From the NCBI RefSeq assembly GCF_013623775.1, contig NZ_JABFAM010000006.1, positions 248,001 to 312,000 of the forward strand: a stretch of 64,000 nucleotides of DNA, in the 5' to 3' direction. Numbering within the stretch: the stretch's first letter is position 1; the number at the start of each line of letters is the position of its first letter. Positions 6,180 through 23,528 of this stretch are shown piece by piece. A model generated the notes under the pieces. The model worked only from the letters and a program-made list of their open reading frames with translations, was not told where the DNA came from and did no database searches. The DNA comes from Rufibacter sp. XAAS-G3-1 (GTDB taxonomy: Bacteria; Bacteroidota; Bacteroidia; Cytophagales; Hymenobacteraceae). The position numbers and the translations under genes were made by a program.

Positions 6180-6950
6180 ATGAAGACAAAACAGGAGATT
6201 GTGGAGAACTGGCTTCCCCGGTACACGGGTAGGCCCCTCAATGAATTTGGCGAATACATCTTACTGACCAATTTCCTTAACTACGTGGTGATGTTCGCCA
6301 ACCAGTTTGAGGTGGAGATCAAAGGCTCTGACAAACCCATGCAGACCGCCACGGCCCATAACATCACCATCATCAACTTCGGGATGGGAAGTGCCATGGC
6401 GGCAACCGTGATGGATCTCCTCTCGGCGGTGAAACCGAAGGCGGCCCTGTTCCTGGGTAAATGCGGAGGCTTGAAGAAGTCGAAGTTGGGAGATTTGATC
6501 CTTCCTATCGCGGCCATTAGGGGCGAAGGAACGTCTGATGATTACCTGCCACCAGAGATTCCTGCTCTTCCCTCCTTCCGCTTACAGCGCGCCGTTTCGT
6601 CCATGATCAAAAAGCATGAGATGGACTACTGGACTGGTACCGTGTACACCACCAACCGCCGCGTGTGGGAGCATGACGAGGAGTTCAAAGAATACCTGCG
6701 CTCTATTCGCGCCCTGGGCGTGGACATGGAAACCGCCACTATCTTTGTGGTAGGCTTTATGAACGATATTCCGCACGGGGCTTTGTTGCTGGTCTCTGAC
6801 AACCCCATGACTCCGGACGGTGTGAAAACCGCCGAAAGCGATCTGCGCATTACCAGTGACTTTGTAACCAAACACCTCCAGATTGGAATTGATTCTTTAA
6901 TGGAACTCCGTGACTCCGGAGAATCTGTAAAACACCTGCGCTATGAATAG
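6180..6950 (+). CDS. amn: AMP nucleosidase
   Basis: A 256-residue phosphorylase-superfamily enzyme predicted to hydrolyse the N-glycosidic bond of AMP to give adenine and ribose 5-phosphate in the cytosol. The short Bacteroidota form lacks the extra N-terminal domain of the longer E. coli Amn. Visible family features are FGMGSAMAATVMDLLSAV (about residues 64-81), FLGKCGGLKKSKLGDLILP, and GVDMETATIF near residue 180, the purine/ribose-binding methionine-glutamate segment. The ATG overlaps nothing upstream. Its stop overlaps the next gene by 8 bp, so the two are co-transcribed and probably translationally coupled. Confidence 0.9.
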   Translation: MKTKQEIVENWLPRYTGRPLNEFGEYILLTNFLNYVVMFANQFEVEIKGSDKPMQTATAHNITIINFGMGSAMAATVMDLLSAVKPKAALFLGKCGGLKKSKLGDLILPIAAIRGEGTSDDYLPPEIPALPSFRLQRAVSSMIKKHEMDYWTGTVYTTNRRVWEHDEEFKEYLRSIRALGVDMETATIFVVGFMNDIPHGALLLVSDNPMTPDGVKTAESDLRITSDFVTKHLQIGIDSLMELRDSGESVKHLRYE

Positions 6951-8688: not shown

Positions 8689-10002
8689 TTAGAACACAGA
8701 GGGTTCAACAGGTGCCAGTTTCCGGGTTCTGATGGAGAACAGCAGGGCCAGGCCAATGACAAAAAAGACCAGCAAGGTGAGAATGCTGTTGCGCATAGAC
8801 CCAAAGATTTGCTCGGTAATGCCAAACGCCAAGGTGCCTAAAGCCAAGCCCACTTTGTCGCAGATGTCATAGAAACTGAAGAAAGAGGCGTGGTCTGTGG
8901 TTTCAGGCAACAACTTACTGTAGGTAGACCGGGAAAGCGATTGCACCCCTCCCATCACGGCTCCTACTACAAAAGCCAATACATAATATTGATTTCCGGT
9001 GGTGACAAAATAAGCACCTATGGTAATGCCCACCCACACCAGCACCGCCCACACCAACGCCATGGTATTCCCAACTTTCCCCGAAAGCCACGCAAAGAAA
9101 TAAGCTCCGCCAATGGCTACGGCCTGAATAATCAATAATACAGTAATTAAAGCATTATCGGGTAAATTCAGCTCTTTAGAACCAAAAAGGGAGGCCACGT
9201 ACATGACGGTTTGCACGCCCATGTTATAGAAAAAGAACGCCATCAGAAAACGCTTGAGCAAGGGCAACTCTTTCAGCATGCTGACTACCCTGCCCAGTTC
9301 TTTGAACCCGTTCAGCAGATAATTTCCTTCGGCTTTCTTCTTGTAAGGGTTATTGGGCAGGTACGCAAACGAATACTGCGAGAAGCCAAACCACCAGAGG
9401 CCCGTAATCAGAAAGGAGATGCGTGGCGGCAACCCGGCATCTTCAATACCCAATTTCTCGCTGTTCAAGACCAAGGCCAACGAGAAAATCAACAGAAGCA
9501 TACTGCCTATATACCCCAAAGAAAAACCACGCGCGCTCAATTTGTCAAAGTTGTCTTCCGTGGCGATTTCGGGCAGGTAGGAATTGTAAAACACAATGCT
9601 CCCGCTGAAGCCGATGGCCGCCACCATGAACAGCAATACCGAGAGGGAAAAAGTCTCTTCGGTGAAAAAGAAAAGCCCCATGCAGGCAGTAGAGCCCATG
9701 TAGCAGAAGAAGCGCATAAAGTTCTTTTTGTTTCCGCCGTAGTCTGCAATGGCGGTGAGTAGAGGACTCAGGAAAGCAATGGTCAGGAAAGCCCCGGTTA
9801 AGGCATAACTATACAGGACAGAGGCCGATATTTCAATTCCGAAGAAACTGACGATATCGCCATTGTTTCCTCTGGTGAGGGCGACATAATAAATGGGGAA
9901 AATGGCGGTGGTGATGACAAGCGAGTAAACAGAATTTGCCCAATCATAAAAGCACCAGGCTTTCATGATTTTAGGGTCGTTTTTAAGAGTGGTCTGCATC
10001 AT
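8689..10002 (-). CDS. MFS transporter, UMF1 (Atg22-like) family
   Basis: The 437-residue polytopic membrane protein opens with KAWCFYDWANSVYSLVITT, a hallmark of the UMF1/Atg22 branch of the major facilitator superfamily, and has about twelve hydrophobic segments. Yeast Atg22 exports amino acids from the vacuole; bacterial members have no agreed substrate. A cytoplasmic loop rich in charge (NNPYKKKAEG) separates the two six-helix halves at about residues 215-225. Two adjacent ATG codons (10002 and 9999) can start it. It is monocistronic and divergent from the sigma factor gene. Confidence 0.88.
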   Translation of the reverse strand: MMQTTLKNDPKIMKAWCFYDWANSVYSLVITTAIFPIYYVALTRGNNGDIVSFFGIEISASVLYSYALTGAFLTIAFLSPLLTAIADYGGNKKNFMRFFCYMGSTACMGLFFFTEETFSLSVLLFMVAAIGFSGSIVFYNSYLPEIATEDNFDKLSARGFSLGYIGSMLLLIFSLALVLNSEKLGIEDAGLPPRISFLITGLWWFGFSQYSFAYLPNNPYKKKAEGNYLLNGFKELGRVVSMLKELPLLKRFLMAFFFYNMGVQTVMYVASLFGSKELNLPDNALITVLLIIQAVAIGGAYFFAWLSGKVGNTMALVWAVLVWVGITIGAYFVTTGNQYYVLAFVVGAVMGGVQSLSRSTYSKLLPETTDHASFFSFYDICDKVGLALGTLAFGITEQIFGSMRNSILTLLVFFVIGLALLFSIRTRKLAPVEPSVF

Positions 10003-10149: not shown

Positions 10150-10761
10150 ATGGGTACACCAATACTTACCCAAGACCAGGAACTGCACCACCTGCTCAAA
10201 ACAGATGAAAAGCTTTTCATGGAAACGCTGTTCAAGCAGTACTACGCATTATTGTGCAGAACAGCCGTGCGTTTCACCAAAGACACCGAGGCGGCCGAAG
10301 ATCTGGTGCAGGAAGTCTTCTGTAAAATCTGGCAAAACCGTGAGGTGCTGGAGGTAAACACATCTTACAAGGCGTACCTTATCAGGTCGGTGACCAACCA
10401 GGCTTTGAACTACCTGGAGAAACAGAAGCGCCTGGTGTTGGCAGAAGACACCTCCCCCTTTGAAGCCTCCCTTTCGGCCAACACTACTATGGAACTGCTA
10501 GCCGGAACCGAGATGGAAAGCCGCATTCAGCAGGCCCTGAACGATTTACCGCCCCAGTGCCGCCTTATCTTTGAAATGAGCCGGTTTGAGGAATTAACCT
10601 ACAAAGAGATAGCCGAAACGCTGCAACTTTCCCCTAAAACGGTTGAGAACCAGATGGGAAAAGCCCTGCGCATGTTGCGTGAGCGTCTGCTGTTTTTATT
10701 TATAACGTGCTCTTTCTTAATAACTTTAACTGAGACTGGCAAAACTTTAACATTAGTTTAA
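10150..10761 (+). CDS. ECF RNA polymerase sigma-70 factor (FecI-like)
   Basis: A 203-residue extracytoplasmic-function sigma factor. Region 2 is about residues 26-65 (LFKQYYALLCRTA...DLVQEVFCKIWQ) and region 4 about 125-180, with the helix-turn-helix ELTYKEIAETLQLSPKTVENQ. Such factors bind core polymerase and direct it to a small regulon, usually outer-membrane receptor genes. The C-terminal tail (LLFLFITCSFLITLT) is unusually hydrophobic for a sigma factor, which I have seen in other Bacteroidota FecI-like proteins. A FecR-type anti-sigma gene follows 73 bp downstream, so activity is probably held until an outer-membrane signal arrives. Confidence 0.93.
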   Translation: MGTPILTQDQELHHLLKTDEKLFMETLFKQYYALLCRTAVRFTKDTEAAEDLVQEVFCKIWQNREVLEVNTSYKAYLIRSVTNQALNYLEKQKRLVLAEDTSPFEASLSANTTMELLAGTEMESRIQQALNDLPPQCRLIFEMSRFEELTYKEIAETLQLSPKTVENQMGKALRMLRERLLFLFITCSFLITLTETGKTLTLV

Positions 10762-10834
10762 CAAATGATTGAAGTGGGCATAGGGGTTACCCTCCTTTCA
10801 TCTGTCTTACAGATACCACGACACTAACACTACC

Positions 10835-11908
10835 ATGACACAAACAAAACCGAACACCCACGAGAACCCAGAATGGGTCTTGATGGCGAAAGCTTTGCGC
10901 GGAGAGCTCACCGAAGAAGAACAGGTTGCATTTTCTGCCTGGTTAAACCAAGATGAAGCACACACGCAACAATGGACAGACGCGCTGGAAGTTTGGGATC
11001 AAGTTGGCGCAGAACAAAACCAGGCCTTCCAGCCAGATGCAGACCTGGCCTGGACTAAACTGAGCGCCAAACTAGAGTTTCCTACAGAGACCAAAGTCAT
11101 TCCGCTGATACCCGCTGAGCCAGTTGCCTCTTTAGAGCCAACCGTAACCGTAGAAAGACAGCTCTCCCCCTGGAATACCCTATACAAGTACGCCGCCGCG
11201 CTTGTTCTGGCCGCCGGTTTAGCTTGGTTAGGGTATTTGCAATTTAACACGTCCTCTTCTGCCTGGGCCCAGGTAGCCACCGCAGCCGGCCAAAGGCAAC
11301 TGATTTATCTACCAGACAGCAGCCAGGTGACCCTCAATGAAAATTCGACCCTCCGCTACCAGACCGCTTTCAATGGCGCTGAGCGCCAGGTGGAATTGGT
11401 GGGCGAAGGTTTCTTTGAAGTCAGGAAAAACCCAGAGCAGCCGTTTATTGTGAAAAGCGGTAACGCCCAAACCAAAGTACTAGGCACGTCCTTTAACGTG
11501 AGGGCCATCAAGGATGAGCCAAACGTTTCGGTGGCGGTGGTTACCGGCAAAGTAGCTTTCTCTTCCCTGAAAGACCATCAGCAAGTTCTGCTGACCCCAG
11601 GGTTTACCGGACAGCTTTCGGCCAATGGCCAACTTGCCAAGAAACAGACGCTGGAAACTTCTGCCAGCACCTGGCGGACGCTGGAATTTGACAATACGTC
11701 TATCAAGGCTGTGGCGCAACAATTAGAAGCGTATTTCAAAGTTTCTGTGGCCATCCCTGACCAGAAGCTGCAAGCCTGCACGTTCACCGGCACGTTTGAG
11801 AACCCTGAGTTAGATGAAATCCTAGCGGTTTTGATTGCCTCATCAGATTTGAAAATAAGCCGTTCTCAAACCGGATCTTACACCATTGAAGGGGCAGGTT
11901 GCCAATAA
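10835..11908 (+). CDS. FecR-type anti-sigma factor
   Basis: This 357-residue inner-membrane regulator has a cytoplasmic sigma-binding N-terminal part (residues 1-90), one membrane helix at about 110-128 (YAAALVLAAGLAWLGYL), a periplasmic FecR domain (about 150-250, LPDSSQVTLNENSTLRY and GEGFFEVRKNPEQPF) and a C-terminal DUF4974/STN-like domain (about 275-350). It is expected to sequester or activate the ECF sigma encoded upstream and to receive the signal from the STN domain of a TonB-dependent receptor. The nearest such receptor starts 2 kb downstream. Its stop lies 36 bp inside the longest reading of the next gene. Confidence 0.92.
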   Translation: MTQTKPNTHENPEWVLMAKALRGELTEEEQVAFSAWLNQDEAHTQQWTDALEVWDQVGAEQNQAFQPDADLAWTKLSAKLEFPTETKVIPLIPAEPVASLEPTVTVERQLSPWNTLYKYAAALVLAAGLAWLGYLQFNTSSSAWAQVATAAGQRQLIYLPDSSQVTLNENSTLRYQTAFNGAERQVELVGEGFFEVRKNPEQPFIVKSGNAQTKVLGTSFNVRAIKDEPNVSVAVVTGKVAFSSLKDHQQVLLTPGFTGQLSANGQLAKKQTLETSASTWRTLEFDNTSIKAVAQQLEAYFKVSVAIPDQKLQACTFTGTFENPELDEILAVLIASSDLKISRSQTGSYTIEGAGCQ

Positions 11909-11943
11909 GTACCTTTCCCCTGCAGAGGTATTTGAACACCATC

Positions 11944-12678
11944 ATGCACCTTAGAGTAAGTTTCCATTCCCTCTTGCTACTCTGTTTTCTGGGCATCTTC
12001 ACGGCCTGTGACATTTTAGGTGACAGCCCCTGTTTAGAGGGAGATGGCCAAAGCAAAACAGAAGCCAGGGCTGTACCCTCCTTTACTGGAGTGGACATGC
12101 GGATAGCCGGAAATGTCTATGTCACTGCCGGGCCAAAGGCTGAAGTGAAGGTGGAGAGCTTCGCCAATCTTCTACCCGAAATTGTGACCGAACTGGAAGG
12201 CAGCACCTTGGTAATCAGATCAGAATCTTGTTTAGAATATTCTGATGAGGAAACCACCGTGTACATCACCTTACCAGACATAGAATACGCCGAGCTCCAA
12301 AGCTCCGGGCAGATGAGGATTCAAGCAGTGCCGTCCTCTAAGGGTCTTAAGATAAGATTAACCGGTTCAGGAACTGTCAGGTACCTGGGAAGCACAAACC
12401 GCATCCAAGTTACCCACACTAGCTCAGGCGACGTAGACTTGGATGGCTTTGTCTCTCACCTGGAGACCACGTTGACCGGCTCAGGAAAAATTCTCGGGTA
12501 TTCTCTTCGGGCAGATACGGTGGAAGCCAAATCAACCGGTTCCGGACACCAGCAGATTTGGGTAGATAAAGTTCTGGAAGCAACAGTTAACGGCAGCGGA
12601 AACATATATTACCGCGGCTCTCCTTCTCTCGTCTCCACGTTTACCACAGGTTGGGGCAAAGTACTACAGGATGATTGA
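11944..12678 (+). CDS. Head-GIN (DUF2807) lipoprotein
   Basis: From the ATG at 11944 the product is 244 residues, opening with MHLRVSFHSLLLLCFLGIF and a cysteine after TA, a lipoprotein signal. An upstream in-frame start at 11899 would place non-signal residues in front, so I prefer 11944, 35 bp after fecR. The rest is the putative auto-transporter adhesin head-GIN/DUF2807 fold: a repetitive right-handed beta structure with recurring glycine-serine turns (LTGSGTVRYLGS, TLTGSGKILGY, KSTGSGHQQI, VNGSGNIYYRG). It is probably co-transcribed with the sigma/anti-sigma pair. Role unknown; a cell-surface protein is likely. Confidence 0.85.
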   Translation: MHLRVSFHSLLLLCFLGIFTACDILGDSPCLEGDGQSKTEARAVPSFTGVDMRIAGNVYVTAGPKAEVKVESFANLLPEIVTELEGSTLVIRSESCLEYSDEETTVYITLPDIEYAELQSSGQMRIQAVPSSKGLKIRLTGSGTVRYLGSTNRIQVTHTSSGDVDLDGFVSHLETTLTGSGKILGYSLRADTVEAKSTGSGHQQIWVDKVLEATVNGSGNIYYRGSPSLVSTFTTGWGKVLQDD

Positions 12679-12689
12679 ATCATTCCTTC

Positions 12690-12775
12690 TGTCATCCTGT
12701 AAGGATCTTGGAGCGAATTGGGAATGAAGTGAATAAACGCCATTGCCGTTTGTAACCAAGATCCTTTCAGGTTAA
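12690..12775. repeat. Palindromic repeat G, copy 1
   Basis: Imperfect inverted repeat whose ends read GTCATCCTGTAAGGATCTTGG and the near complement of the same. It is the counterpart of the cleaner copy at 49305-49392 and the half copy at 42384. It follows the DUF2807 gene and may terminate that operon. Confidence 0.65.
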
Positions 12776-12827
12776 TAGGAATAGGTTCCTTTCTGCGCTT
12801 TGGCTTTCTTTGGGGGATTGACAGTGA

Positions 12828-13320
12828 CATGCCTTCTGCTATTCCCTTGGCTTGTCTGCTTCTTGCGTGGGTGCAAATACTTTGTTGTTTCATCTTTGGC
12901 GGTAAGCGCTCACGGCCGCGGGGGCCCGTCTTCCCCTCTCGCACTGCCCTTTCAGCCTGGGAAGTTCTCTTCTCTTGGCTCATGTCTATTCAGGGCCAAA
13001 AGCGAGGCGCGCTCGGGGAAGACTGGAACCGGGGAAAGTAAGTAATGGCAGCAGTAAAAGTATGCCCGCTCTTCCGGAGTTCCACTCCGGAAGCAACCTG
13101 CCGGGGAGTTCCACTCCCCTTCTTTTGCCGTGGCTCCCGGCAGAGTGGAAATCCGCAGCAGACAGGTTCGGGAGTAGAACTCCCGAATAGCAAGGGTAGT
13201 AATTAGGGGCTAGCTGTATTGCCTCTCTTCTCCTATAAAGGCGCATTCCCCTCCTCGGAGGGGTAAGGGTGGGTTCTGGCGCTCCACCATCTCCCTCAAA
13301 GGCGAACCAATCATTGCACA
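12828..13320 (-). repeat. Dispersed element B, copy 2 (inverted), with nested C palindromes
   Basis: Same element as at 5185 but in reverse. The conserved stem pairs 12928-12942 with the segment ending at 13023. Between the core and the AGGAGGGG-type palindrome lie small nested palindromes of type C built on GGAGTTCCACTCC: 13071-13093, 13101-13122, a worn copy near 13135-13156, and 13167-13187. The same insert occurs in copy 3, so copies 2 and 3 form a subtype. The element occupies much of the 1.3-kb gap between the sigma/anti-sigma operon and the TonB receptor. Confidence 0.85.
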
Positions 13321-13512
13321 GGGGTATAAAATTCCAGTTTCAACATCCCGCAGATTCTTTGCGCTAAACCTTTAAGTAACTGCTAAGCAACTTACTTTCT
13401 TGAGGAGTGCTCAAACATTTTAATCTATTCCCCAAAGAGGAACTGTTTATTGCCTGTTTTCGGTAAAAGACCCTTAAAACGGATTCCGCTAATAACTCAG
13501 GCTAATGCCACT

Positions 13513-13790
13513 CATAGAACCTGTTTAGAGTTTTCATAAACCGGCATTTAAAGCAATTCCCCTGGTGCAGGCGTCCGTTTGTGCCGTCGTTTTCAGGCTG
13601 CTTTTACAAAAACAGGCCAAAATCAAGAGGTTTATTTATACTCTGGCGTAAGCATCCGCTTGTACCTCTGTTTTTAGGTTGTTTTTCTGAAAACAGGCAG
13701 AAAGCTCCAAACAGCTTCATAGTTTTAAAATTCTGTTTTGAGCCTCTTTTTCCAAAAACAGGCAAGAAACGCGCGCTTTGGAGAAGGAGC
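13513..13790. repeat. MITE-like element M copy 1 with three A hairpins
   Basis: Terminal inverted repeats (AGAACCTGTTTAGAGTTTT from 13517 and its relative ending at 13722) enclose two type A hairpins at 13588-13624 and 13668-13704, each preceded by an H module (CAGGCGTCCGTTTGTGCC, GTAAGCATCCGCTTGTACC). A third A hairpin at 13733-13770 lies just outside. No transposase is encoded. The stretch 13321-13512 holds only a worn A-like copy near 13451-13480, and 13791-13958 looks like an AT-rich promoter region for the receptor gene. Confidence 0.7.
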
Positions 13791-13958
13791 ATTTACCATT
13801 TACTTTCTAGGATGCAGCTTTAAATTAAAATATCAATACAGAACACAGCTAAATTCCTATTTCATGATAATTGAATTTTGTAAATATTCATGAATTTCAG
13901 AAATTAGCGAGCAGATTTCTGCCGTTTACCAACATCCATCCCCTTCAAATGACCGGTT

Positions 13959-16625
13959 TTGCTTAAACAAGTATGCCTCTGTTTTTGTGTTGTTTTCCTG
14001 ATCTTCTTCCCCTTGAGATCGGGAGCGCAGGAATTACCGGCTGGGGTGTCTGTTTCCTTTCACTACCAGAATAAAACCTTAGAGCAGGTTCTGGAAGATT
14101 TGCAGAAGCGGTATTCTCTGAATTTTTTCTATAGCAACAGTCAACTGCCACTTACTACTAAAGTTTCCTGCGCGGCTACCTCGCTCCCTTTAGAGAAAGC
14201 CCTGCAAGCTTTATGTGCCTGTGCTGATCTTTCCTTCCAGATTATTGGGGAACAGATTGTCCTAAAACCAAAGAATGGGATGAAAGACAACGCTGTTTCT
14301 TTGAAGACCTTTACGCAAACCCTACGAGGAACCGTGATAGATGCCGGACTAAAAACGCCTTTGATAGGTGCCACCGTCTCCCTCCTATCCGTTGATCCCA
14401 ACCGGGCCGTGAGCACCGGCCTAGACGGATCTTTTGCGTTGGAAAAACTACCAATTGGCAGACATACCCTTCAGGTTTCTTACCTGGGGTACAAAGACGC
14501 TGAGCTGCCGAATATTATGCTTGTGTCAGGAAAAGAAACGGTCATCTCTGTCCAAATGGAAGAAAGTTTCATTCAGCAGGCCGAAGTGTTAATTGAGGCC
14601 GAAAGAGACAAAGCCCTTCCCCAGAACCTACTCATTTCCTCCAGTGTGCATACGCTTCGTACCGAAGAAATCAACCGGTTTGCGGGCTCCCGGCAAGATC
14701 CCAGCCGGATGGCAGCCAATTACGCGGGCGTTTCCAGTGCTTCAGACCAGCGGAACGATATCATTGTGAGAGGCAATTCTCCCTTAGGTGTTCTCTGGCG
14801 CCTGGAAGGGGTAGAAATTCCCAACCCAAACCATTTTACGTTCACGCCTAATACCGGTGGGGCGTTCAGTATGCTCAATAACAACCTGCTGGACAATTCA
14901 GACTTCCTGACGGGCGCCTTCCCCGCCGAGTACGGAAACCGAATTGGGGCAGTCATGGACGTACGCTTACGGGAGGGCAATAACAAAAGAGTAGAGAATA
15001 CATTACAGATTGGCCTGAACGGAATGGAAGTGGTCACGGAAGGCCCCTTAGTGAAAAAGTGGGGCGGCTCTTTTCTGGGCAGTATGCGTCTCTTTACGTT
15101 TCGGCCACTGGAAGAATTAGGAGTGAACATTGGCTATCAAGGTCTGCCCAGATTTCAGGACGGCTCCTTTAAAATTGTGTTGCCTACGCCTACAGCGGGC
15201 AAGTTCTCTGCCTGGGGCATTGCCGGTAGCAGCAGCGTCACCATTTATGACATAGACGAAGATACTACCACCTGGGGAAAGGTTCATTATAGGCTGGAGC
15301 CCACCTTGTACAACCAGATGTACGCTTTTGGAGTGCATCATACCTATTCTAAGATCCCTAAAACAGTCACCGAACTGATCATCTCTACTTCGGGCAGCCA
15401 GGTAGAGGCCACCAGCATTGCCACCTTTAGGAATCTCACCTCCAGATTGTTCTACTACTTGCGCAATTACGAAAGGCAACTCATAACCCGGTTTACTGTC
15501 ACCCACAAACCTACGCCTGGGCTGTTGTTCAAAAGCGGCTTCACCTGGCAGAAAATGTACTACAACAACCAAGAAATCATGTATCAATATCCCAGGGATG
15601 TGTACGAGATTCCGCTGGATGCCCAGGGTTCTGCCACCTTGTTACAAGGCTATTTTCTGTCTAAGTATTCTATCTCCCCCCAACTTGACGTGCAGGCCGG
15701 ATTATACGCCCAAAAATTTTCCATTGGGGAGCGGTTAGCCGTAGAGCCCAGAATCACGTTTGATTATTATATTACGGATGCCCACAAAGTCCACCTTTCC
15801 GCCGGATTCCACAGCCAAACCCAACCCTTGGTTTACTATGAATACAGGTTCTTTTCGCAAGAACAGCCTGTTTTCAATCAACCGTACAACCAACTGGATT
15901 TTACCAGAAGCCGTCAGGTTGTGTTAGGCTATAACTACTCTCTCAATTCAAGTTGGCGTCTAAAAGCAGAGGCATACTACCAGTACCATTATAATGCTCC
16001 GGTAAGTAAAAGAGAGGGAGAAGAAGCTTTCTCCATGCTCAACCTGGGCACCGACTACAGCTTTGTTACCGTAGACAGTGTTGTGAGCACAGGAACCGGC
16101 AAAAACTACGGCATAGAATTCACCGCCGAACGCTTTCTCAAAGATGGTTTCTACGCCTTAGCCAACCTCTCGCTGCTGAAGTCTACTTTCACCGGAGGCG
16201 ATGGGAAAGAACGGCCAACCGCCTTTAGCATCGGCTTTATTTCTAACCTACTTTTAGGAAAAGAAATTAAATTGGGTTACGACAATAGACATCACCTTTC
16301 CTTGGATCTTAGAATCAATTATGCCGGGGGCAGAAGGTACATTCCAATTGACAAAGAAAGAACCAATCAAGAACCAACCGATAAAATTTATTACGATGTT
16401 GAAAATGCCTATATACCCAAACTCAGAAACTACTTCAGAACCGACCTTCGTCTCTCCTACCAGCTGAACACCAAGAAAACAACCCACTGGTTTTTTGCAG
16501 CCGCAGACAACATCTTCAACAGAAAAAACGAACTTTACTATGGCTGGGATTTAGAGGAGAATGAAGCAAAGGAATATTACCAGCTGGGCATTTATCCCTA
16601 TTTAGGCTATAGAATACAATTCTGA
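13959..16625 (+). CDS. TonB-dependent receptor with STN signalling domain
   Basis: This 888-residue outer-membrane receptor has a signal peptide, an STN domain (about 28-105, VSFHYQNKTLEQVLEDLQ), a carboxypeptidase-regulatory-like beta domain (about 118-205), a plug (about 225-340) and a 22-strand barrel ending in GYRIQF. The STN domain is the part that contacts FecR, so this is a good partner for the sigma/anti-sigma pair 2 kb upstream. No SusD-like gene accompanies it, so a siderophore, metal or peptide ligand is as likely as a glycan. The start is odd: the only in-frame initiator is TTG at 13959, while an ATG at 13949 is one base out of frame (see findings). Confidence 0.88.
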   Translation: MLKQVCLCFCVVFLIFFPLRSGAQELPAGVSVSFHYQNKTLEQVLEDLQKRYSLNFFYSNSQLPLTTKVSCAATSLPLEKALQALCACADLSFQIIGEQIVLKPKNGMKDNAVSLKTFTQTLRGTVIDAGLKTPLIGATVSLLSVDPNRAVSTGLDGSFALEKLPIGRHTLQVSYLGYKDAELPNIMLVSGKETVISVQMEESFIQQAEVLIEAERDKALPQNLLISSSVHTLRTEEINRFAGSRQDPSRMAANYAGVSSASDQRNDIIVRGNSPLGVLWRLEGVEIPNPNHFTFTPNTGGAFSMLNNNLLDNSDFLTGAFPAEYGNRIGAVMDVRLREGNNKRVENTLQIGLNGMEVVTEGPLVKKWGGSFLGSMRLFTFRPLEELGVNIGYQGLPRFQDGSFKIVLPTPTAGKFSAWGIAGSSSVTIYDIDEDTTTWGKVHYRLEPTLYNQMYAFGVHHTYSKIPKTVTELIISTSGSQVEATSIATFRNLTSRLFYYLRNYERQLITRFTVTHKPTPGLLFKSGFTWQKMYYNNQEIMYQYPRDVYEIPLDAQGSATLLQGYFLSKYSISPQLDVQAGLYAQKFSIGERLAVEPRITFDYYITDAHKVHLSAGFHSQTQPLVYYEYRFFSQEQPVFNQPYNQLDFTRSRQVVLGYNYSLNSSWRLKAEAYYQYHYNAPVSKREGEEAFSMLNLGTDYSFVTVDSVVSTGTGKNYGIEFTAERFLKDGFYALANLSLLKSTFTGGDGKERPTAFSIGFISNLLLGKEIKLGYDNRHHLSLDLRINYAGGRRYIPIDKERTNQEPTDKIYYDVENAYIPKLRNYFRTDLRLSYQLNTKKTTHWFFAAADNIFNRKNELYYGWDLEENEAKEYYQLGIYPYLGYRIQF

Positions 16626-16740: not shown

Positions 16741-18225
16741 TCACTGCTTTGCATGTAGGGTTGTATTCTTTATTCTATTTAATACAAGCTCCCATAAATG
16801 CTCATAAGGTATAATCTCAATTTCAGCATAAGCGTCTCCGGGAGTTGGAGTCTTTTGCAATTTCTGATACAGATGGCTTCCTTTTTTATGGGTAACAGAA
16901 TAATCAAAATTGGAGCTTACCAATACCGTTAAAAGCTTGAAAAAAATTCGACTGCGTTCACTAAAGCTATCCTTAAAGTGGTGCTGGGCGTACTTTTTCA
17001 AGGAGTCCACTCTATACTCTAAAGCTTCATAGTCAGCAATTTCAAGATAGTACATTACCTGTAAAATAAGGATTGCAACATTGAACCCTTCTTTATCCTT
17101 ACTGTAGGTTGGGGCATTATGTACTAAACTTTGCCACTTCAACGGATTCTCTTTCTCAGGTGCTATAAATTGTAAGTAGGCCTCAAACAAAGTCCACCTT
17201 TCCTGGGCCAACTTATTTATTTTCTTAATAAAGGGGTTTTCCTGAACCTGATGCAACAACATATGCGCCACTTCATACTTCTTTGCATGGATAGCCAACA
17301 AAGTATAGTTCTCCATATAGGCAAACCAGTTGTTGCTTGAAGGACTAAAAGAAGGTAAATACGCATTAGCCAGAGCTAGGCCTTGCTCTAGTTTTTTAGC
17401 TCTTAAGTGAGCATATACCTGTATGAATTGATTATACCGATGATCAAATCTTTTTGCCACATTTTTATAGTCCTTTAAAATTTGTTCTGATCTATCTGTC
17501 AAATTAACAATTTGGTCAAAATTGCCATTTAACTCATGCAGCCACATGGAGAGCCTATAATAATTATTAAACGTTTCAAACGTTTTGGCATCTTGCCATA
17601 TTTTATTCATTTTACCTAGTACCTGATCTACCCTTTGGAGGTAATCTTTTCGGGCTACAATTGAACGGCTGAGCTCTATATTGGCCTCTGAAAAAATCAT
17701 TTCTGATTCCTGGTCAGCAGTCAGTTTAGACGTTACAGTTTTCAATTGGTCTACCGCTTTGTAAAATAGAGTTGTTTCTTTTAAATTAACATAAGCTTGA
17801 ATAATCGCCCGCAAACACAAGGAAGAGATATAAGTGAAATCATATTCAGCCGCCTTAGACAAGGCTTGTTTCAGCAATGGCAAAGCCAGGTTATTGGCCC
17901 CCGCATCTAGCAAAACCCTTGCCTGCAAGAATTTTGCTAGGCAACTTTGTTCTATGGCATGTGAACCTTGGTTATTTCCTATGTTTTCATCAATGAAAAA
18001 AAGCTGATTCATTAACTTCTTCCTAAGTCTTGATTTAACCATTTTCAACCCTCCTTTATCCTGCCCATTTGAATAAAGAATAAGATTGGCGGAAGATTCG
18101 TCATGAATCTGGCCTGTTATAATTTCTCTATATAATTGCTTTTCTTTAGAATTAACGGTAAAAACATGAGGCGGCATGCCACCTCTTTTTTCAACTATTT
18201 GCACTAATTTTATTAATTCTTCCAT
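16741..18225 (-). CDS. Unknown helical-repeat (TPR-like) protein
   Basis: I do not recognise this 494-residue protein by name. It has no signal peptide and no membrane segment, so it should be cytosolic. Residues 1-80 form a basic, mixed region containing KSRLRKKLMNQLFF at 64-77. From about residue 90 it reads as consecutive amphipathic helices, e.g. LQARVLLDAGANNLALPLL, consistent with TPR-like repeats through to the C-terminus. Proteins with this N-terminal signature occur in other Cytophagales as unnamed families. It is divergent from a 62-aa peptide gene and an oligopeptide importer, and the surrounding DNA is clearly more AT-rich than the flanks. A peptide-sensing role is an inference from this context. 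No helix-turn-helix is obvious. Confidence 0.8.
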   Translation of the reverse strand: MEELIKLVQIVEKRGGMPPHVFTVNSKEKQLYREIITGQIHDESSANLILYSNGQDKGGLKMVKSRLRKKLMNQLFFIDENIGNNQGSHAIEQSCLAKFLQARVLLDAGANNLALPLLKQALSKAAEYDFTYISSLCLRAIIQAYVNLKETTLFYKAVDQLKTVTSKLTADQESEMIFSEANIELSRSIVARKDYLQRVDQVLGKMNKIWQDAKTFETFNNYYRLSMWLHELNGNFDQIVNLTDRSEQILKDYKNVAKRFDHRYNQFIQVYAHLRAKKLEQGLALANAYLPSFSPSSNNWFAYMENYTLLAIHAKKYEVAHMLLHQVQENPFIKKINKLAQERWTLFEAYLQFIAPEKENPLKWQSLVHNAPTYSKDKEGFNVAILILQVMYYLEIADYEALEYRVDSLKKYAQHHFKDSFSERSRIFFKLLTVLVSSNFDYSVTHKKGSHLYQKLQKTPTPGDAYAEIEIIPYEHLWELVLNRIKNTTLHAKQ

Positions 18226-18458
18226 TGTTCATAGATTCTTGAAATAAGGTGAACCATATTCAATGACTTTGATGTCTTTGACTATATAAGTAATTCTTTT
18301 TGCTTCAATATCAGTTTAAAATTACGTAAAATTACATTATGATACGATATAAATTAAATCAATAAAGAGCTATATATTAATAATTTTATATTTTTTATTA
18401 ATATAACCATAGTTACAAATTCACCAGAAGTTTCCTTTTCTTCCCCTCCCCAATCACC

Positions 18459-18466
18459 CATATTTG
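18459..18466 (+). promoter_or_regulatory. Possible -7 element before the peptide gene
   Basis: CATATTTG differs by one base from TAnnTTTG and lies 29 bp before the ATG at 18496. The region 18226-18458 is very AT-rich and otherwise contains no gene; it must hold the divergent promoters. Confidence 0.3.
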
Positions 18467-18495
18467 TACCATACTTTTAAACATTCAATACAGCC

Positions 18496-18684
18496 ATGAT
18501 AGAATTACTACTCGCCCTCCTGCTTCAACTTGCTACCTTGAATGGAGATACAACAGTTAAAAAGGACAATGAAAAAGCCAAAGCGGCTACAACTTCAGTA
18601 AGTACTGCAGCGACAACTCAGGATACAGATTCAGGTTCTGAACCTAGCCGTGGCGGAACAGGTACCTGGGACACAAGAAACTAA
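18496..18684 (+). CDS. Small peptide with hydrophobic N-terminus, unknown
   Basis: A 62-residue reading frame with an ATG start. The first 15 residues (MIELLLALLLQLATL) are strongly hydrophobic but lack the positive charge of a normal signal peptide. The middle (NGDTTVKKDNEKAKAATT) is polar and low in complexity, and the end SGSEPSRGGTGTWDTRN is distinctive, with the only aromatic residue. This is the plan expected of an exported precursor with a C-terminal mature peptide, but that is inference. It lies between a divergent TPR-like protein and an oligopeptide-binding protein gene (137 bp downstream). It could also be a chance open frame; the ordered composition and the position argue for a real gene. 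Confidence 0.55.
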   Translation: MIELLLALLLQLATLNGDTTVKKDNEKAKAATTSVSTAATTQDTDSGSEPSRGGTGTWDTRN

Positions 18685-18821
18685 TACATCAAATATAATT
18701 GATAGAACGCCTCTTAAAGTTGATTCATCTCTATCTTTAGGAGTACTATAAATGAGCTAAGGCATTTTGAAGCAAGTTTTGTAATATTGAGCTGGGCTTA
18801 TGCCTACATTGATCGCTCTAT

Positions 18822-20543
18822 ATGAAAAACTACTGCGCAAAATGCCTTAGCTTCATTTTTATATGTATTCTCTCCTGCACTTCTAAACCAGAAGAAACGG
18901 GCATTAGAATAAGATTTGATCAAGATCCAGAGTCACTACACCCTCTTAGCTATGGGAATGCTCCAGCACTTCAGATACTTAACCACGTATACCAAAGCCT
19001 ATTAACTGTTGATTTAGCGGATAAGTCAATTCGTCCGTTACTTGCGGCAGAGCTACCAAGCGTACGCAAAACAGATTCAACCTCTTTATTTACTTTTTCC
19101 ATTCGTCCCGAAGCCCAATGGGATAACGGATCACCCATCACTGCTCAGGACGTGGCTTTCTCTCTAAAGCTACTCCATAGTCCGCTTATTGACAATGAAC
19201 GCTGGCGAGCTCAGTACGAATTCATCAAAGATATTCAGCTTTCCCAGAGAGATCCTAGAAGCTTTACTTTGGTCTGCTCTGGATATACACCTGAAATGAG
19301 GCTAATGGCAGGTGATTTTTTTGTCCTCCCATCTTATCAATTTGACCCAAAAGGTACCCTTGCTTCCGTCTCCTATCAATTGATAAGACAGAAATTTGAT
19401 TCTCTTGCCCTTACCCCAACTTTTAAGGCCTTTGCTACCATTATTAATAATGTAGCTATGGCAAGAGATACTTCTTTGATTAAAGGAAGTGGCCCTTATA
19501 GACTAAGAAAGTGGAATGCTGGCCAGTCAATCACTTTAGAGAAAAAGAAGCCTTGGTGGGGAGACGGCGTTAATCCCCATGTTCCTGCACTACAGGCAAG
19601 ACCAAGCCATATTGTTTTCCAAATAATACCTGATAATGCCTCCGCCATTTTAGCTTTGAAGGCTAGCCAATTGGAGTTGATGGACAACATTCCTTTGATT
19701 CCATTCCTGGAGATGCAGAGAGAAAGGAAGTACCAGCAACTTTTCAACTTTCACACTCCAACTTCCTATGAACTCATTTTCATGGGGGTTAATGGGCAAA
19801 ATCCTATCTTACAAGATCGTTCAACCAGACAGGCTCTAGCCCATTTACTAGATATCCCCCAGATAATAAACTCTTTACAAGGAGGATTAGCAACCCCAAC
19901 TGTTGGCTTTGTACACCCTCAGGAAAAAGAATTCTATAACTCAGATTTACCAATACTCAAGTTTGACAAACCAAAAGCCAGAAATTTATTACTAGCTGCC
20001 GGATGGAGGCAGACTTCTACCGGATGGGAAAAGAAGATAAATGGAAAAATTCACCAGCTAAAGCTTGATCTGTTACATAAAGTAGGCAACTCTGATTTTG
20101 AAAACATGAGTTTACTCTTTCAGCAGAATGCGAAATCACTGGGAATTCCGGTGACCCTTCAGGCACTGGAGAGCAGTCAGATAAGCGAGAGACTGCAAAC
20201 CAGGAAGTTTGATCTCTATTTCAGAACATTGATAGGTAATCCATTCTCCTATAACCTTATTCCATTGCTCCATACTTCTAATGCTAAAAATGGCGGAGGC
20301 AATGTGACTAGTTTTGGAACCGCTGAGACTGACCTTCTCCTTGAAAAAATTGCCAATGAGGAACTGCCTGAAGAGAAAGCATTACTTTTGAAATCTCTTC
20401 AGCAAAAGATGCAGGAAGAAAGCAACATGATTTTCCTCTACTTTTCAAAAAACAGAATAGCGGTATCAAAGCAGATGGATTCTGTGATTATATCTGGTTT
20501 AAAACCTGGGTATGATGTGACCAGAGCTTTTTTAAAGAAATAA
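18822..20543 (+). CDS. Oligopeptide/nickel-type ABC transporter substrate-binding lipoprotein
   Basis: A 573-residue periplasmic binding protein of the SBP_bac_5 (OppA/DppA) family. The signal (MKNYCAKCLSFIFICILSC) places the lipidated cysteine near residue 19. Family signs are IRIRFDQDPESLHPL at the start of the mature chain, LTVDLADKSIRPLLAAELP, FSIRPEAQWDNGSPITAQDV with the W-x-G-x-P-x-T/ADV pattern, and GSGPYRLRKWNAGQ. These proteins capture peptides or similar ligands for import. Two permease genes follow with 6- and 7-bp gaps, forming a tight operon. No ATP-binding subunit is present, so ATPases must come from elsewhere. Confidence 0.9.
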   Translation: MKNYCAKCLSFIFICILSCTSKPEETGIRIRFDQDPESLHPLSYGNAPALQILNHVYQSLLTVDLADKSIRPLLAAELPSVRKTDSTSLFTFSIRPEAQWDNGSPITAQDVAFSLKLLHSPLIDNERWRAQYEFIKDIQLSQRDPRSFTLVCSGYTPEMRLMAGDFFVLPSYQFDPKGTLASVSYQLIRQKFDSLALTPTFKAFATIINNVAMARDTSLIKGSGPYRLRKWNAGQSITLEKKKPWWGDGVNPHVPALQARPSHIVFQIIPDNASAILALKASQLELMDNIPLIPFLEMQRERKYQQLFNFHTPTSYELIFMGVNGQNPILQDRSTRQALAHLLDIPQIINSLQGGLATPTVGFVHPQEKEFYNSDLPILKFDKPKARNLLLAAGWRQTSTGWEKKINGKIHQLKLDLLHKVGNSDFENMSLLFQQNAKSLGIPVTLQALESSQISERLQTRKFDLYFRTLIGNPFSYNLIPLLHTSNAKNGGGNVTSFGTAETDLLLEKIANEELPEEKALLLKSLQQKMQEESNMIFLYFSKNRIAVSKQMDSVIISGLKPGYDVTRAFLKK

Positions 20544-20549
20544 ACAGCT

Positions 20550-21908
20550 ATGTCGTTGTTGAATATATTCCTTCGACTCACCAAATTTATTCTCCTGCTT
20601 TGGCTCACCGCTTCCTGTGTTTTCCTAATGAGCCGCTTATTGCCTTCTGCCAATGCACCAAAAGGCATGGAAGACGCAGACCTTTCCATGCATGGGGCAA
20701 CAAATGCTGCTATCCTTGAGCAAGTTAGAAGTGACTATCTGGAGAGAACGGGTTTAGGTAAGCCTCTCTTTTACTTCGATCTAGCCTTGAGGGGGCATGC
20801 ATTAGCCGGAAAATTGCAAGCCACAGCAACTGACAGGCCGTGGGCTGAGAAGGCTGTTCTCTGGCATGGAAACAGAGAGGCCGAAAGTTTTTATTCCATT
20901 TGGCAGCAGTGGCAATTACGTGCGGCAGAGTCAGAGAAAAGAACGCTGCTCAACCATCTACTCTCCTGGTCAATCAGTGATTCACCCACAGACAGGGTTG
21001 TTCAAGAAAAGGAAATTGCAAACAGATTGCGTGCCTCTTCCCTTTCCGTTTCAAGCCAGCTTCTCACTTCTTGGCAAAAATTACGAAAGACGCCGTCTAC
21101 CTTAACCAATTACCTGCCCGTTGTGCAATGGCACGGGAGTGATAACCTCTATCATGATTGGATGGTCAAAACCCTAAAAGGTGACTTGGGCGCATCTACG
21201 CAGGATTATCAAGCCGTTTCCTTTAAAATAAAAGAAGCCGCGGGTGTATCAATAATAGTAGGATTGGTAGGGTTACTTTTTGCGATGGTGGTTTCGTACT
21301 TCATGGGGTTACACTTCACAGAAAACCCATCAAGCGTATTTACCTATCTTACGCAGCAGTTTCTGTATGTATTGGATAGTATTCCGTCTTTCATGATCGC
21401 CCTCTTCTTACTTAGTATATTTTTAGGAGCTGGAGGTTCTATTTTCAACCCATTTTTGGTGGATGATGGCAGTGTTTTACTGGATATACTTGGAACACCG
21501 TCAATCCTGCTAGGAAGTCTTTGTATATCGCTCTTGCTCATCCCCCATCTTACGCTACAGTTTCACAGAAGCCTTGTTGCGCAAACCCAGGTTTTATACC
21601 AGCGCACAGCTTTAGCAAAAGGGCTTACTTTCAAGAAAACACTTCGGAAACACGCTTTACCCAATGCCTTACTCCCCAGTATAACCATTCTTAGTGAAGT
21701 CATTATTGGGTTACTGGCCGGTGTGTTGGTGGTGGAGATTACGTTTTCTTTACCTGGTTTGGGGAGCTTGCTGGCAAAGTCCATCCTTTCGGCCGATTAC
21801 CCGGTATTGGTAGGATTAACCCTCCTGTTTCTGATTTTCAGGCTACTCATCGTGTGGCTTACAGAGCTATTGTATGGCTGGCTTGACCCAAGAATGAGAA
21901 GCAACTAA
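20550..21908 (+). CDS. ABC transporter permease, OppB/DppB type, with a large insertion
   Basis: A 452-residue membrane permease of the peptide-import type. The first membrane helix is at about residues 8-28. Roughly 200 residues of polar sequence follow, where ordinary OppB proteins have about 70-90, and the five-helix core begins near residue 230 (VSIIVGLVGLLFAMVVSYF). The coupling (EAA) loop, ALAKGLTFKKTLRKHALPNA, is intact, so it should still dock an ATPase. The insertion probably forms a periplasmic domain contacting the binding protein. Start ATG 6 bp after the binding-protein stop. Confidence 0.88.
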   Translation: MSLLNIFLRLTKFILLLWLTASCVFLMSRLLPSANAPKGMEDADLSMHGATNAAILEQVRSDYLERTGLGKPLFYFDLALRGHALAGKLQATATDRPWAEKAVLWHGNREAESFYSIWQQWQLRAAESEKRTLLNHLLSWSISDSPTDRVVQEKEIANRLRASSLSVSSQLLTSWQKLRKTPSTLTNYLPVVQWHGSDNLYHDWMVKTLKGDLGASTQDYQAVSFKIKEAAGVSIIVGLVGLLFAMVVSYFMGLHFTENPSSVFTYLTQQFLYVLDSIPSFMIALFLLSIFLGAGGSIFNPFLVDDGSVLLDILGTPSILLGSLCISLLLIPHLTLQFHRSLVAQTQVLYQRTALAKGLTFKKTLRKHALPNALLPSITILSEVIIGLLAGVLVVEITFSLPGLGSLLAKSILSADYPVLVGLTLLFLIFRLLIVWLTELLYGWLDPRMRSN

Positions 21909-21915
21909 GGAGTTT

Positions 21916-22971
21916 ATGGGAGAAACACCATCGCGACAGCCTTTATCGTTTGCTGAAAAAGCATCTATGTCCTGGCTAGTTCTTTTTTCAATTGCCGCCT
22001 TTATTTCCCAAATCCTGTTATGGCAGGGAAAACAGGCAGTAGCCATTCCAGAACAGGCCTACCTCCCTCCTTTCACTTCCGTAGAGCACCTTTTGGGAAC
22101 AGACCAACTAGGCAGGGATGTTTTATATTATTTATTCCTCAGCTGCCGCACGGCATGGCTTCTAGCTGTACCGCCTTTGATTGTAGCAACCGCCATTGGT
22201 GTTCTGTTTGGTTCAGGAGCCGCCATTCTGGGCAATAATGGCGTGAAAATCACCGTAAGAAAACTTCTTACGCTGGCTTTGTTGCTAGTGGCGTACCTGG
22301 TTCTACATTCCATCATTCGCTACTGGCCTCCCTTGTCAGACTACCCGTTTACACGCTGGCTATATTACGGGAGCGGTATTCTCCTTTTATGTTATGTATT
22401 GAACCGAAAACCTGGTTCTGCTTTCTCAAAGAAAAGAACATTGCTGACCTTACCCGTAGACGAAGGGCTTCAAAAGATAATTGATCTCTGGTCTACCCTG
22501 CCAAAGTTACTTTTACTATTGATCCTTACCGCCTTCACTCCTTTTTCCATGCTCACGTTAATGGGCTGGATAACTGCCACCTACTGGGTCTTACCTGCCC
22601 GTATAGCCAGGGCCAGCGTTTTGCAGTTGAAGAAAGGATCTTACTATGAAACCGCACAGGCCCTGGGTATTCCCTTCAACAGAGTCTTCACCCATTTTAT
22701 CTTACCCTCTCTGAAGGGGCCAATTCTAACGAACTTCTGTTTTGCTGCTTCCGGATTATTAGGGGTAGGGTCTACTTTGGCTTACTTAGGAATAGGGATA
22801 CCGGCAGATGTGCCTTCATGGGGTAAAATGTTGGCAAATGCACGTTTTTCAGTTGAGGCTTGGTGGCTTTTGGTCTTTCCCGCCGCTTTATTACTGGGTA
22901 GTATCTTCAGTCTTCAGGTTTTAGGTCATAGTTTATCTGCTCAAAACAGGGACAAATCCGTTACAAAATAA
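21916..22971 (+). CDS. ABC transporter permease, OppC/DppC type
   Basis: The 351-residue second permease of the importer. LLGTDQLGRDVLYYLFLSCRTA near residues 57-77 (in two parts) is the standard OppC signature, and the EAA loop appears as ETAQALGIPFNRVFTHFILP near residue 255. Between the third and fourth helices there is an extra segment with two additional hydrophobic stretches (about residues 115-160) and a short charged linker. This matches the enlarged partner upstream and suggests a lineage-specific importer. It ends the three-gene operon; a second small protein gene lies 180 bp downstream. Confidence 0.88.
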   Translation: MGETPSRQPLSFAEKASMSWLVLFSIAAFISQILLWQGKQAVAIPEQAYLPPFTSVEHLLGTDQLGRDVLYYLFLSCRTAWLLAVPPLIVATAIGVLFGSGAAILGNNGVKITVRKLLTLALLLVAYLVLHSIIRYWPPLSDYPFTRWLYYGSGILLLCYVLNRKPGSAFSKKRTLLTLPVDEGLQKIIDLWSTLPKLLLLLILTAFTPFSMLTLMGWITATYWVLPARIARASVLQLKKGSYYETAQALGIPFNRVFTHFILPSLKGPILTNFCFAASGLLGVGSTLAYLGIGIPADVPSWGKMLANARFSVEAWWLLVFPAALLLGSIFSLQVLGHSLSAQNRDKSVTK

Positions 22972-23153
22972 CCCTTTTTGTTCCTGTATTCCTACCATAA
23001 TAACATGGAAACAATGGTATAAAGAGCAAAATACGCGTTTATCAGCACTTAAAGTACAATAACTTTCATGAAATATTCAAGTTATAGATATAATGATTCT
23101 TTCCTGTTTTGAGACCATAGTACCCTGTATTATTGTATCATAATAATAAGCAA

Positions 23154-23420
23154 ATGGAAATGAATGTATCTGGGTCTAGTTTAATGAACACTTTACATCA
23201 CCAATCTCACCTAACCGTAGATGTAAGGGCTTCCAAAAAGCCAGGTGGCCAAACTGCCCAGTCATTGCTTGGTAAGATAGGAACGTATTCTTCTACTTCC
23301 ATATCTAACCTCATGGAATTCTCAACCACTAGCTTGTCAGAAGGCTTTGTGTTAGATGGATTCTTCTTAGGAACCTTTGAGTTTGATTCACTTACCGGCC
23401 ACCCGGGAATACGATATTAA
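23154..23420 (+). CDS. Small protein of unknown function downstream of the importer
   Basis: The preferred start is the ATG at 23154 (88 residues); a TTG at 23133 would add seven residues. The N-terminal third (MEMNVSGSSLMNTLHHQSHL...KKPGG) is polar and ends in a Gly-Gly pair. The rest is rich in Ser, Thr, Phe and Gly (FSTTSLSEGFVLDGFFLG) and ends in DSLTGHPGIRY. It has no signal peptide. The layout recalls peptide precursors with a leader ending in GG, but no maturation enzyme is nearby, so this is only a suggestion. A strong terminator 76 bp downstream suggests that transcription of the importer operon runs through it. Confidence 0.5.
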   Translation: MEMNVSGSSLMNTLHHQSHLTVDVRASKKPGGQTAQSLLGKIGTYSSTSISNLMEFSTTSLSEGFVLDGFFLGTFEFDSLTGHPGIRY

Positions 23421-23495
23421 GTTTTTGAGTTGTCTTCCGTAGCCCCCCATACGGAAGTTAGTTTCTTGTTTCAGTTTTTTTGTTGTTTGTCTGTT

Positions 23496-23528
23496 TGCCT
23501 GCCGGCTTGTCACCGGCAGGCATTTTTT
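23496..23528 (+). terminator. Terminator closing the peptide/importer locus
   Basis: TGCCTGCCGG and its complement pair around a 7-base loop (23496-23522) and are followed by a run of T. It marks the right end of the AT-rich locus. Confidence 0.88.

Follow-up and report, generated by a model that had tools for sequence, protein, structure and literature searches.

A candidate peptide-signalling cassette of helical-repeat receptor, small propeptide and oligopeptide importer in Rufibacter (Bacteroidota)

Could a Gram-negative bacterium carry a peptide-signalling cassette that works like the RRNPPA systems? Peptide signals read by cytosolic receptors of the tetratricopeptide repeat (TPR) type are the standard communication system of Bacillota. 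The question is raised by a locus in a 64,000-nucleotide stretch of Rufibacter sp. XAAS-G3-1 (contig NZ_JABFAM010000006.1, positions 248,001 to 312,000), hereafter the window. Here, the gene for a 494-residue protein of all-helical repeats, a candidate cytosolic peptide receptor (16741..18225, minus strand), is divergent from a 62-codon frame, a candidate pro-pheromone gene (18496..18684, plus strand), which is followed by genes for an OppA-type binding protein and two permeases. A preliminary description of the window had suggested a Bacteroidota analogue of the RRNPP systems. On rereading, its coordinates for the helical protein, the 62-residue frame, the OppA-type protein, the two permeases, and a second small frame downstream are all correct. 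We propose that the locus is a peptide-signalling cassette, in which a peptide would be exported, re-imported, and read by a cytosolic receptor, and that it works like RRNPPA; we put the probability of this reading at about two in three. The suggested analogy draws support from the conservation of the small frame, the co-occurrence of the importer, and fold matches to Rap, NprR, and AimR; the function is what we infer from these.

The small frame belongs to an unnamed peptide family: each member has a hydrophobic leader and a Gly/Trp core, along with a region that is either rich in Ser/Thr or composed of repeats. Their genes lie between the divergent helical-repeat gene and oppABC. In the window, the peptide has the leader MIELLLALLLQL, a Ser/Thr/Lys-rich linker, and the C-terminal core GGTGTWDTRN, an assignment made from homologues. 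The groups used below, named where contigs matched titled records, are g1, Rufibacter and one Sabulibacter ruber; g2 and g4, both Adhaeribacter; g3, Pontibacter and Botryobacter; and g5 and g6, the latter perhaps Hymenobacter. In all 16 g1 genomes, the leader follows the pattern M-x-[ED]-[LI]...LLLQ and the C-terminus the pattern GG-x-G-[TN]-W-[DE]-x-[RK]-[DN]. The peptide region was read at 187 loci, as follows. There are 128 loci read by handle, from 126 of the 193 receptor-bearing genomes, and 59 named loci, of which 23 or more duplicate handle loci. The peptide was found, by an automatic finder and by eye, beside the helical protein at 185 of the 187 loci (126 of 128 by handle and 59 of 59 named); the two loci lacking it, L211 and L249, are second copies.

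The finder looks for a hydrophobic leader and a G..W core, and itself excludes K and R from residues 2–10. It was positive in 182 of the 187 regions upstream of the helical protein. The controls were positive in 7 of 187 cases for the opposite strand, in 12 of 187 for dinucleotide shuffles, and in 35 of 338 for other windows, and on these a chance open reading frame was rejected. Among the positives, L211 is spurious; of the five misses, four (L139, L148, L168, and L226) hold the peptide by eye. Across the family of peptides, the leader is hydrophobic and almost always free of K and R; K occurs at position 3 in three peptides recognized by eye. One locus, L026, has three peptide genes in tandem, and some g6 propeptides exceed 100 residues. 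Typed peptides compared with NCBIfam (seven) and Pfam (five) received no name above cut-off.

Further evidence comes from the cores. In g5 and g6, 54 propeptides contain 3 to 20 tandem cores that are near-identical inside a gene and different among genomes. For example, L127 has five IGGTGWGN-type units and L083 has seven DHGNGGWTG-type units; longer arrays occur in frames of up to 297 residues (L233, L242, and L276). The comparison between units was limited to g5 and g6 genes with at least three units, i.e., 54 of the 92 g5/g6 loci. The proportion of synonymous differences (pS) is 0.456 and that of nonsynonymous differences (pN) is 0.021, a pN/pS of 0.046. In 53 of the 54 genes, pN is lower than pS, and the remaining gene is without change of either kind. 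Of the first units of these 54 genes, 42 are distinct. The low ratio therefore indicates that the amino-acid core is held by selection within a gene while varying among genomes, and such constancy within and variation between would fit a ligand. For the 16 g1 orthologues, pN/pS is 0.18 over the last nine codons and 0.32 over the leader, values that are rough because synonymous differences are near 0.6. A conserved C-terminus with a ratio below 1 had been proposed as a check on the small frame, and the g1 peptides have one.

The importer genes are all on the plus strand. They encode an OppA-type substrate-binding lipoprotein (18822..20543; Pfam SBP_bac_5, E 5e-50; a lipoprotein by eye, from FICILSCTS), an OppB-type permease (20550..21908; BPD_transp_1, 1.6e-23), and an OppC-type permease (21916..22971; BPD_transp_1, 5.4e-16). 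Thus, the segment 18822–22971 holds the binding protein and two permeases initially read there, with the one SBP_bac_5 and two BPD_transp_1 domains of an oligopeptide ABC importer. The cassette resembles the Opp/Dpp importers (Opp4-like) in its OppA, OppB, and OppC domains. It differs in that its NCBIfam matches, including Opp4B (1.1e-36) and Opp4C (2.7e-39), are all below cut-offs, and in that no ATPase gene is present in the operon. The only oligo_HPY ATPase of the genome, a fused 607-residue OppDF-type protein with ABC_tran and two oligo_HPY stretches, is encoded on another contig. As an ATPase dedicated to the cassette, it was rejected, with close relatives in 17 of 17 genomes tested, including seven without the cassette. 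The OppA of the cassette is the only SBP_bac_5 match in this genome.

Receptor and importer are inherited together. The helical protein is present in 193 of 200 genomes of the family, and these same 193 also have a closely related OppA (E 1.1e-70 or better); in the seven receptor-less genomes (G107, G115, G133, G143, G156, G158, and G169), the best OppA match reaches only E 5e-7 to 8e-9. Since these seven are all g6, the absences may be one loss and are not seven independent events. At the 59 named loci, OppA adjoins the receptor in 59, and OppB and OppC in 58. At the 128 handle loci, the OppA start is within the fetched segment in 122. The other six are L079, L254, and L259, with little upstream sequence before the contig end; L086, a rearranged locus whose OppA is beside another receptor copy, L125; L260; and the second copy L211. 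The family-wide co-inheritance and the recurrent neighbourhood at the named loci rule out a system confined to this window. The preliminary description had named two findings that would speak against its idea, a small frame unconserved in related genomes, and homologues of the helical protein that are never near a small frame or importer. We encountered neither: the small frame, with its hydrophobic N-terminus and distinctive C-terminus, is conserved at 185 of 187 loci, and helical protein and importer co-occur in 193 of 200 genomes, with neither close relative in the other seven.

What kind of protein is the receptor? It is 79% identical to that of R. sediminis, the nearest named relative. 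Its structural model (predicted local distance difference test, pLDDT, 84.9; 28 sequences) is all helical, with a separate helical domain at residues 1–88 and a TPR-like superhelix extending from about residue 88 to 490. A comparison of the predicted structure with known receptors had been suggested, and it came out in favour of the analogy. Rap, NprR, or AimR make up 20 of the 50 rows returned by VIA-align, which only re-ranks Foldseek's list. The first eight rows are all Rap (Z 17.1 to 15.5, 4.4–5.2 Å over 272–299 residues); the top row has Z 17.1 and 4.7 Å over 296 residues. Among unrelated rows, proteasome subunits and LGN score highest (15.3), so that the top Rap rows are ahead by about 1.8 Z. 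The model supports a Rap-like superhelix for the receptor, which is a likeness of fold and not a showing of common descent. The initial characterization as a TPR-like helical protein stands for the predicted fold and not for the sequence: with the Pfam and NCBIfam models, no TPR family is above cut-off, the best being TPR_16 at E 0.18 and 12.8 bits versus a cut-off of 32.7.

When modelled alone, residues 1–88 form four helices (pLDDT 84.5, 84 sequences). The domain is recognisable in distant homologues and contains a basic helix with the consensus KMLKSRLxKKL. VIA-align matches are weak. Six sigma region-4 entries have Z 4.8 to 3.2 among other folds, and the top row, at Z 5.0, is unrelated. 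A DNA-binding role of this domain, possibly through a helix-turn-helix, is plausible. The earlier statement that no DNA-binding domain can be seen in the protein is thereby doubtful: a helical domain exists that, on these weak matches, could bind DNA. The receptor gene is sometimes multiplied; the 59 named loci hold 91 receptor frames, and Pontibacter loci, including L164, L171, and L144, have up to four receptor paralogues in tandem beside the peptide gene.

A conserved promoter of the peptide gene (18412..18466, plus strand) was recognized by alignment of 16 genus members. It consists of GTTAC at 18412, TTTCCTTT at 18431–18438, and a -7-like ATATTTG at 18460–18466, the last of which resembles the TAnnTTTG -7 element of Bacteroidota promoters. 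Across 185 loci (the 187 minus L211 and L249), T[TG]CCTTT followed after 19–22 nucleotides by AnnTT[TC]G is present upstream in 147, and in 121 of those 147, GT[TC]A[CT] is exactly 20 nucleotides before T[TG]CCTTT. The background rate of T[TG]CCTTT is 0.08 per 250 nucleotides. In this genome, the core pattern occurs at one other place.

Comparison with known systems can be made point by point. The RRNPP signature is a small propeptide that is secreted, a receptor of 250–500 residues, TPRs, and adjacency of the two genes (PMC10075063). In such systems, the propeptide leaves by Sec or PptAB, the peptide imported by Opp binds in the TPR groove, and the receptor has an N-terminal helix-turn-helix (transcription factors) or three-helix bundle (Rap). 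The receptor has 494 residues; the divergent 62-residue frame adjoins it, as at 185 of 187 loci; and TPRs are found in the predicted superhelical fold, not by the Pfam or NCBIfam sequence models. In a second survey, Rgg and PrgX are described as having a TPR-like fold without TPR sequences, and RRNPPA subfamilies as having low mutual sequence similarity (PMC9765709). With RRNPPA (Rap-Phr, NprR-NprX, PlcR-PapR, PrgX, Rgg/ComR, and AimR-AimP; Bacillota), the cassette would share a TPR-type cytosolic receptor of about 250–500 residues, predicted here, an adjacent small propeptide gene, Opp import, proposed here, and propeptides with several copies of the core (PMC10075063, PMC9765709); Rap, NprR, and AimR are also the best VIA-align fold matches. 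Multi-copy RRNPPA propeptides are also documented in a further paper (PMC11343458). The differences are as follows. The cassette is found in a Gram-negative phylum; no sequence relationship was found in the PDB; oppABC is included; the gene order is divergent; the core is of a Trp/Gly type; and the leader is mostly without lysines. The propeptides have up to 20 units, in contrast to the up to six copies reported for RRNPPA (PMC9765709). MalT-type and other TPR regulators also have a TPR-like superhelix, and MalT domain III is the top Foldseek row; the 494-residue receptor differs from MalT-type regulators in having no Pfam match to the MalT ATPase domain and in being paired with a peptide gene. 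By analogy, then, the cassette would work like RRNPPA, with membership not established. The surveys of TPR-receptor peptide signalling are, in the parts cited, centred on Bacillota (PMC10075063, PMC9765709), and no Bacteroidota counterpart is among the literature matches listed (open-access full text, preprints being outside the scope).

We suggest that the cassette operates as follows. The propeptide would be made from its own conserved promoter, and the hydrophobic leader would take it through the inner membrane, after which cleavage would free the short Gly/Trp core. OppA would capture the core in the periplasm, and OppBC, together with the shared OppDF ATPase encoded elsewhere, would return it to the cytosol. 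There, the core would bind in the superhelix of the divergent 494-residue protein and alter the action of the N-terminal domain, most likely on the peptide-gene promoter, plus further targets. The core might pass through the outer membrane as a cell-cell signal, or it might circulate in the periplasm only and so serve self-sensing; either would fit. The sequence shows the gene set, its co-inheritance, the conservation of peptide and promoter, and the strong purifying selection on the repeat copies; from these we infer the steps of export, cleavage, import, binding, and DNA binding.

Relatives of the receptor extend beyond the family. Order-wide, a homologue is present in 83 of 291 genomes, family members included, and in the wider phylum, at a stricter E of 1e-10, in 21 of 395, four of these from the family. 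In other families of the same order, 8 of 32 loci have a candidate leader-bearing peptide (L089, L090, L097, L100, L102, L103, L107, and L111), and outside the order, 9 of 14 do; these candidates were picked by eye from a loose filter and without a chance control. A stronger sign than these is the common C-terminus [IF]DRxED in the distant family f44, in which four loci with five peptides (L307, with two genes, L313, L315, and L316) also share the leader type. OppA or OppABC is adjacent at few loci outside the family (L090, L100, and L314). Receptor-peptide candidates without Opp in the fetched stretch are found at L089, L097, L102, L103, L107, L111, L307, L313, L315, and L316. At L093, L098, and L128, distant receptor homologues are beside tatA-like and amidase-like genes (names by eye), with no peptide.

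It is tempting to propose, at what we consider even odds, that Bacteroidota may have a widespread intracellular peptide-receptor family of their own, either independent of RRNPPA or anciently split from it. Each receptor would be paired with a fast-diverging, leader-bearing propeptide, with Gly/Trp cores in one family and [IF]DRxED in a distant one. In the family represented in the window, the pair would have acquired an Opp importer, which in this genome is the sole SBP_bac_5 system, and so each species would have a private pherotype, in some genera in 3 to 20 tandem copies. If true, the same layout in a diderm phylum makes two questions accessible: by what means Bacteroidota gauge their own density or envelope, and whether a circuit of export, re-import, and TPR sensing evolved more than once. 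Since the cores are short, predicted from sequence, and different among species, they are open to direct test as synthetic peptides.

A number of results weigh against a signalling cassette. For the receptor, the lower Rap rows (Z 15.5–15.9) tie with those of the proteasome and LGN (15.3), and helical models commonly reach Z values near 14. In Foldseek, the receptor model has no PDB match at E <= 0.001; the best row is MalT domain III (E 1.8e-3), and most others are generic TPR proteins. A profile of the 28 receptor members finds no RRNPPA chain in the PDB at E <= 1, the single hit being KWOCA_73 (E 0.0019), which we take to be a designed protein. The helix-turn-helix reading of the N-terminal domain rests on a Z of about 4.8, and Foldseek finds nothing for this domain at E <= 1. 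For the peptide, the leader is nearly always without K or R, unlike a classical Sec signal, an observation to which the finder contributes by barring K and R at residues 2–10. Near the cassette at the named loci, we find no recurrent gene that is obviously dedicated to export or encodes a protease or signal peptidase; the preliminary description had likewise seen no export or protease gene. The fused OppDF ATPase has not been lost along with the cassette. The promoter pattern is not found in 38 of the 185 loci, 16 of which are named Pontibacter, the others being spread over other groups. Elsewhere in the genome, TTTCCTTT-N19-21-ANNTTTG has two hits, versus two and three on the two strands for a reversed-pattern control, and GTTA-N16-TTCCTTT has 10 versus 10 in the control; because the pattern is not enriched elsewhere, a regulon is not supported. 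Finally, 24 of the 32 same-order loci outside the family have no candidate peptide by eye, and Opp is missing from the fetched stretch of most.

Three other explanations were considered. The locus might simply be an operon for oligopeptide uptake that has a helical-repeat regulator and whose small frame is a leader peptide or a small membrane protein that tunes oppA. We regard this as unlikely, and the evidence bearing on it is mixed. Since the OppA is the sole one in the genome, it may serve nutrition too, and in the genus the start codon of oppA is covered by a structured leader (18733..18874, plus strand, from folding and alignment). The leader contains a perfect 15-nucleotide inverted repeat (18755–18769/18838–18852) and the conserved CAAGTTTTGTAATATTG. 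In this genome, the segment 18685–18895, which joins the peptide gene to the oppA start, folds much better than shuffles (z -6.1), and its outer helix is formed by pairing across the start codon of oppA. Yet the tandem cores led us to reject an attenuator leader peptide, a role that their purifying selection and 42 different first units do not fit, and candidate receptor-peptide pairs exist without Opp in the fetched stretch at the ten loci listed above.

The structured leader is genus-specific. Within it, a 17-nucleotide motif, CAAGTTT[TCA]GTAATATTG, is present in 16 of 16 g1 loci and in 10 of the 59 named loci (titled Rufibacter or Sabulibacter), and in none of 83 g6, 10 g3, 9 g5, 8 g4, and 2 g2 loci; the motif could be a promoter instead. 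Pairing in the outer helix, which covaries in part, was counted on 12 of the 16 genus sequences, chosen for an alignable 5′ arm (L012–L015 were left out), and 96.7% of cells pair. Changes on both sides occur in 3 of 15 pairs, a number reached by 44 of 500 shuffles. The cells changed on both sides number eight, a count that none of 500 shuffles reach (shuffled mean 3.0), and the number of pair types is reached by 499 of 500 shuffles; the 3′ arm of the helix is also coding sequence. The median folding z of the leader segment is -4.29 in g1, -2.82 in g4, -0.86 in g6, and -0.81 in g3 (five loci), with 3 of 8 g4 and 11 of 67 g6 segments below -3. No Rfam family matches the oppA leader; there is one sub-threshold match elsewhere.

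About as unlikely, in our judgement, is a secreted antimicrobial or a modified natural-product precursor with several cores, for which the helical protein would be the regulator and OppABC would serve self-uptake or immunity. A leader followed by repeated short cores does resemble multi-core precursors, and two weak matches below cut-off point the same way: a g1 peptide matches TIGR04450, a putative immunity/bacteriocin fusion model (E 0.019, 14.6 of 27 bits), and a g6 peptide matches a model for ATP-grasp targets (E 0.72). However, the cores are kept near-identical inside each gene, and the cassette is in nearly all family genomes (193 of 200), whereas bacteriocin clusters are usually patchy in distribution. 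Moreover, beyond the receptor and OppABC, no neighbour is found at more than 40 of the 59 named loci, so that there is no constant modifying enzyme or immunity gene.

The next commonest neighbours at these 59 loci are an MFS-type frame (40) and an amidohydrolase-type frame (36). The window has counterparts of both, an ATG22/MFS-type transporter (8689–10002, minus strand; ATG22, E 5.6e-75) and a frame at 6943–8595, and so has some of the wider gene order in common with these loci. As a lead only, the ATG22/MFS protein is a possible peptide exporter.

The last explanation, which we consider very improbable, is that the peptide is an envelope component, Gly/Trp-rich, Ser/Thr-rich, and possibly anchored by its leader, monitored or recycled via Opp as is known in principle for periplasmic peptides, with the helical protein gauging envelope stress from the breakdown products. 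The short hydrophobic leader without a clear cleavage site, the Ser/Thr-rich linker, and a below-cut-off match of one g1 peptide to a glycine-rich protein family of Pfam (E 0.0078) are in keeping with it. A core that varies among genomes and is constant within a gene would be more usual for a ligand than for a structural component.

Returning to the cassette and its surroundings, genes for an ECF-type (extracytoplasmic function) sigma factor, FecR, and a TonB-dependent receptor (10150–16625; STN, FecR_C, and Plug domains) adjoin it in the window, an arrangement seen at 9 named loci. In this genus only, the TonB-dependent receptor group is a possible outer-membrane partner. On the other side is the second small protein (23154..23420, plus strand), whose frame spans 23133–23420 with the first ATG at 23154. 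A homologue is 3′ of oppC in 13 of the 16 members of the Rufibacter group. The C-terminus, FDSLTGHPGIRY or close, is strongly conserved, being GTFEFDSLTGHPGIRY in most, with a PGGQT motif. No Pfam or NCBIfam family matches this protein; a paralogue is encoded at G000:C25:410439-410720, beside a beta-ketoacyl synthase gene. For the terminator initially placed after the second small frame, a simple pattern scan finds two terminator-like hairpins, at 23434–23457 and 23496–23522.

A 372-residue lipoprotein (HEAFH) and its paralogue were considered as regulon targets, with GTTAC-N15-TTTCCTT upstream; because their homologues in G022 and G048 are without this motif, they are not claimed as such. In the lipoprotein family of G000:C13:195274-196389 (L292) and C13:82653-83096 (L296), the N-terminal part is common, followed by a Gly-rich linker (GGYGGTG in one). 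The C-termini differ, one having HEAFH, and a small gene follows each, a layout that recalls polymorphic toxin-immunity pairs.

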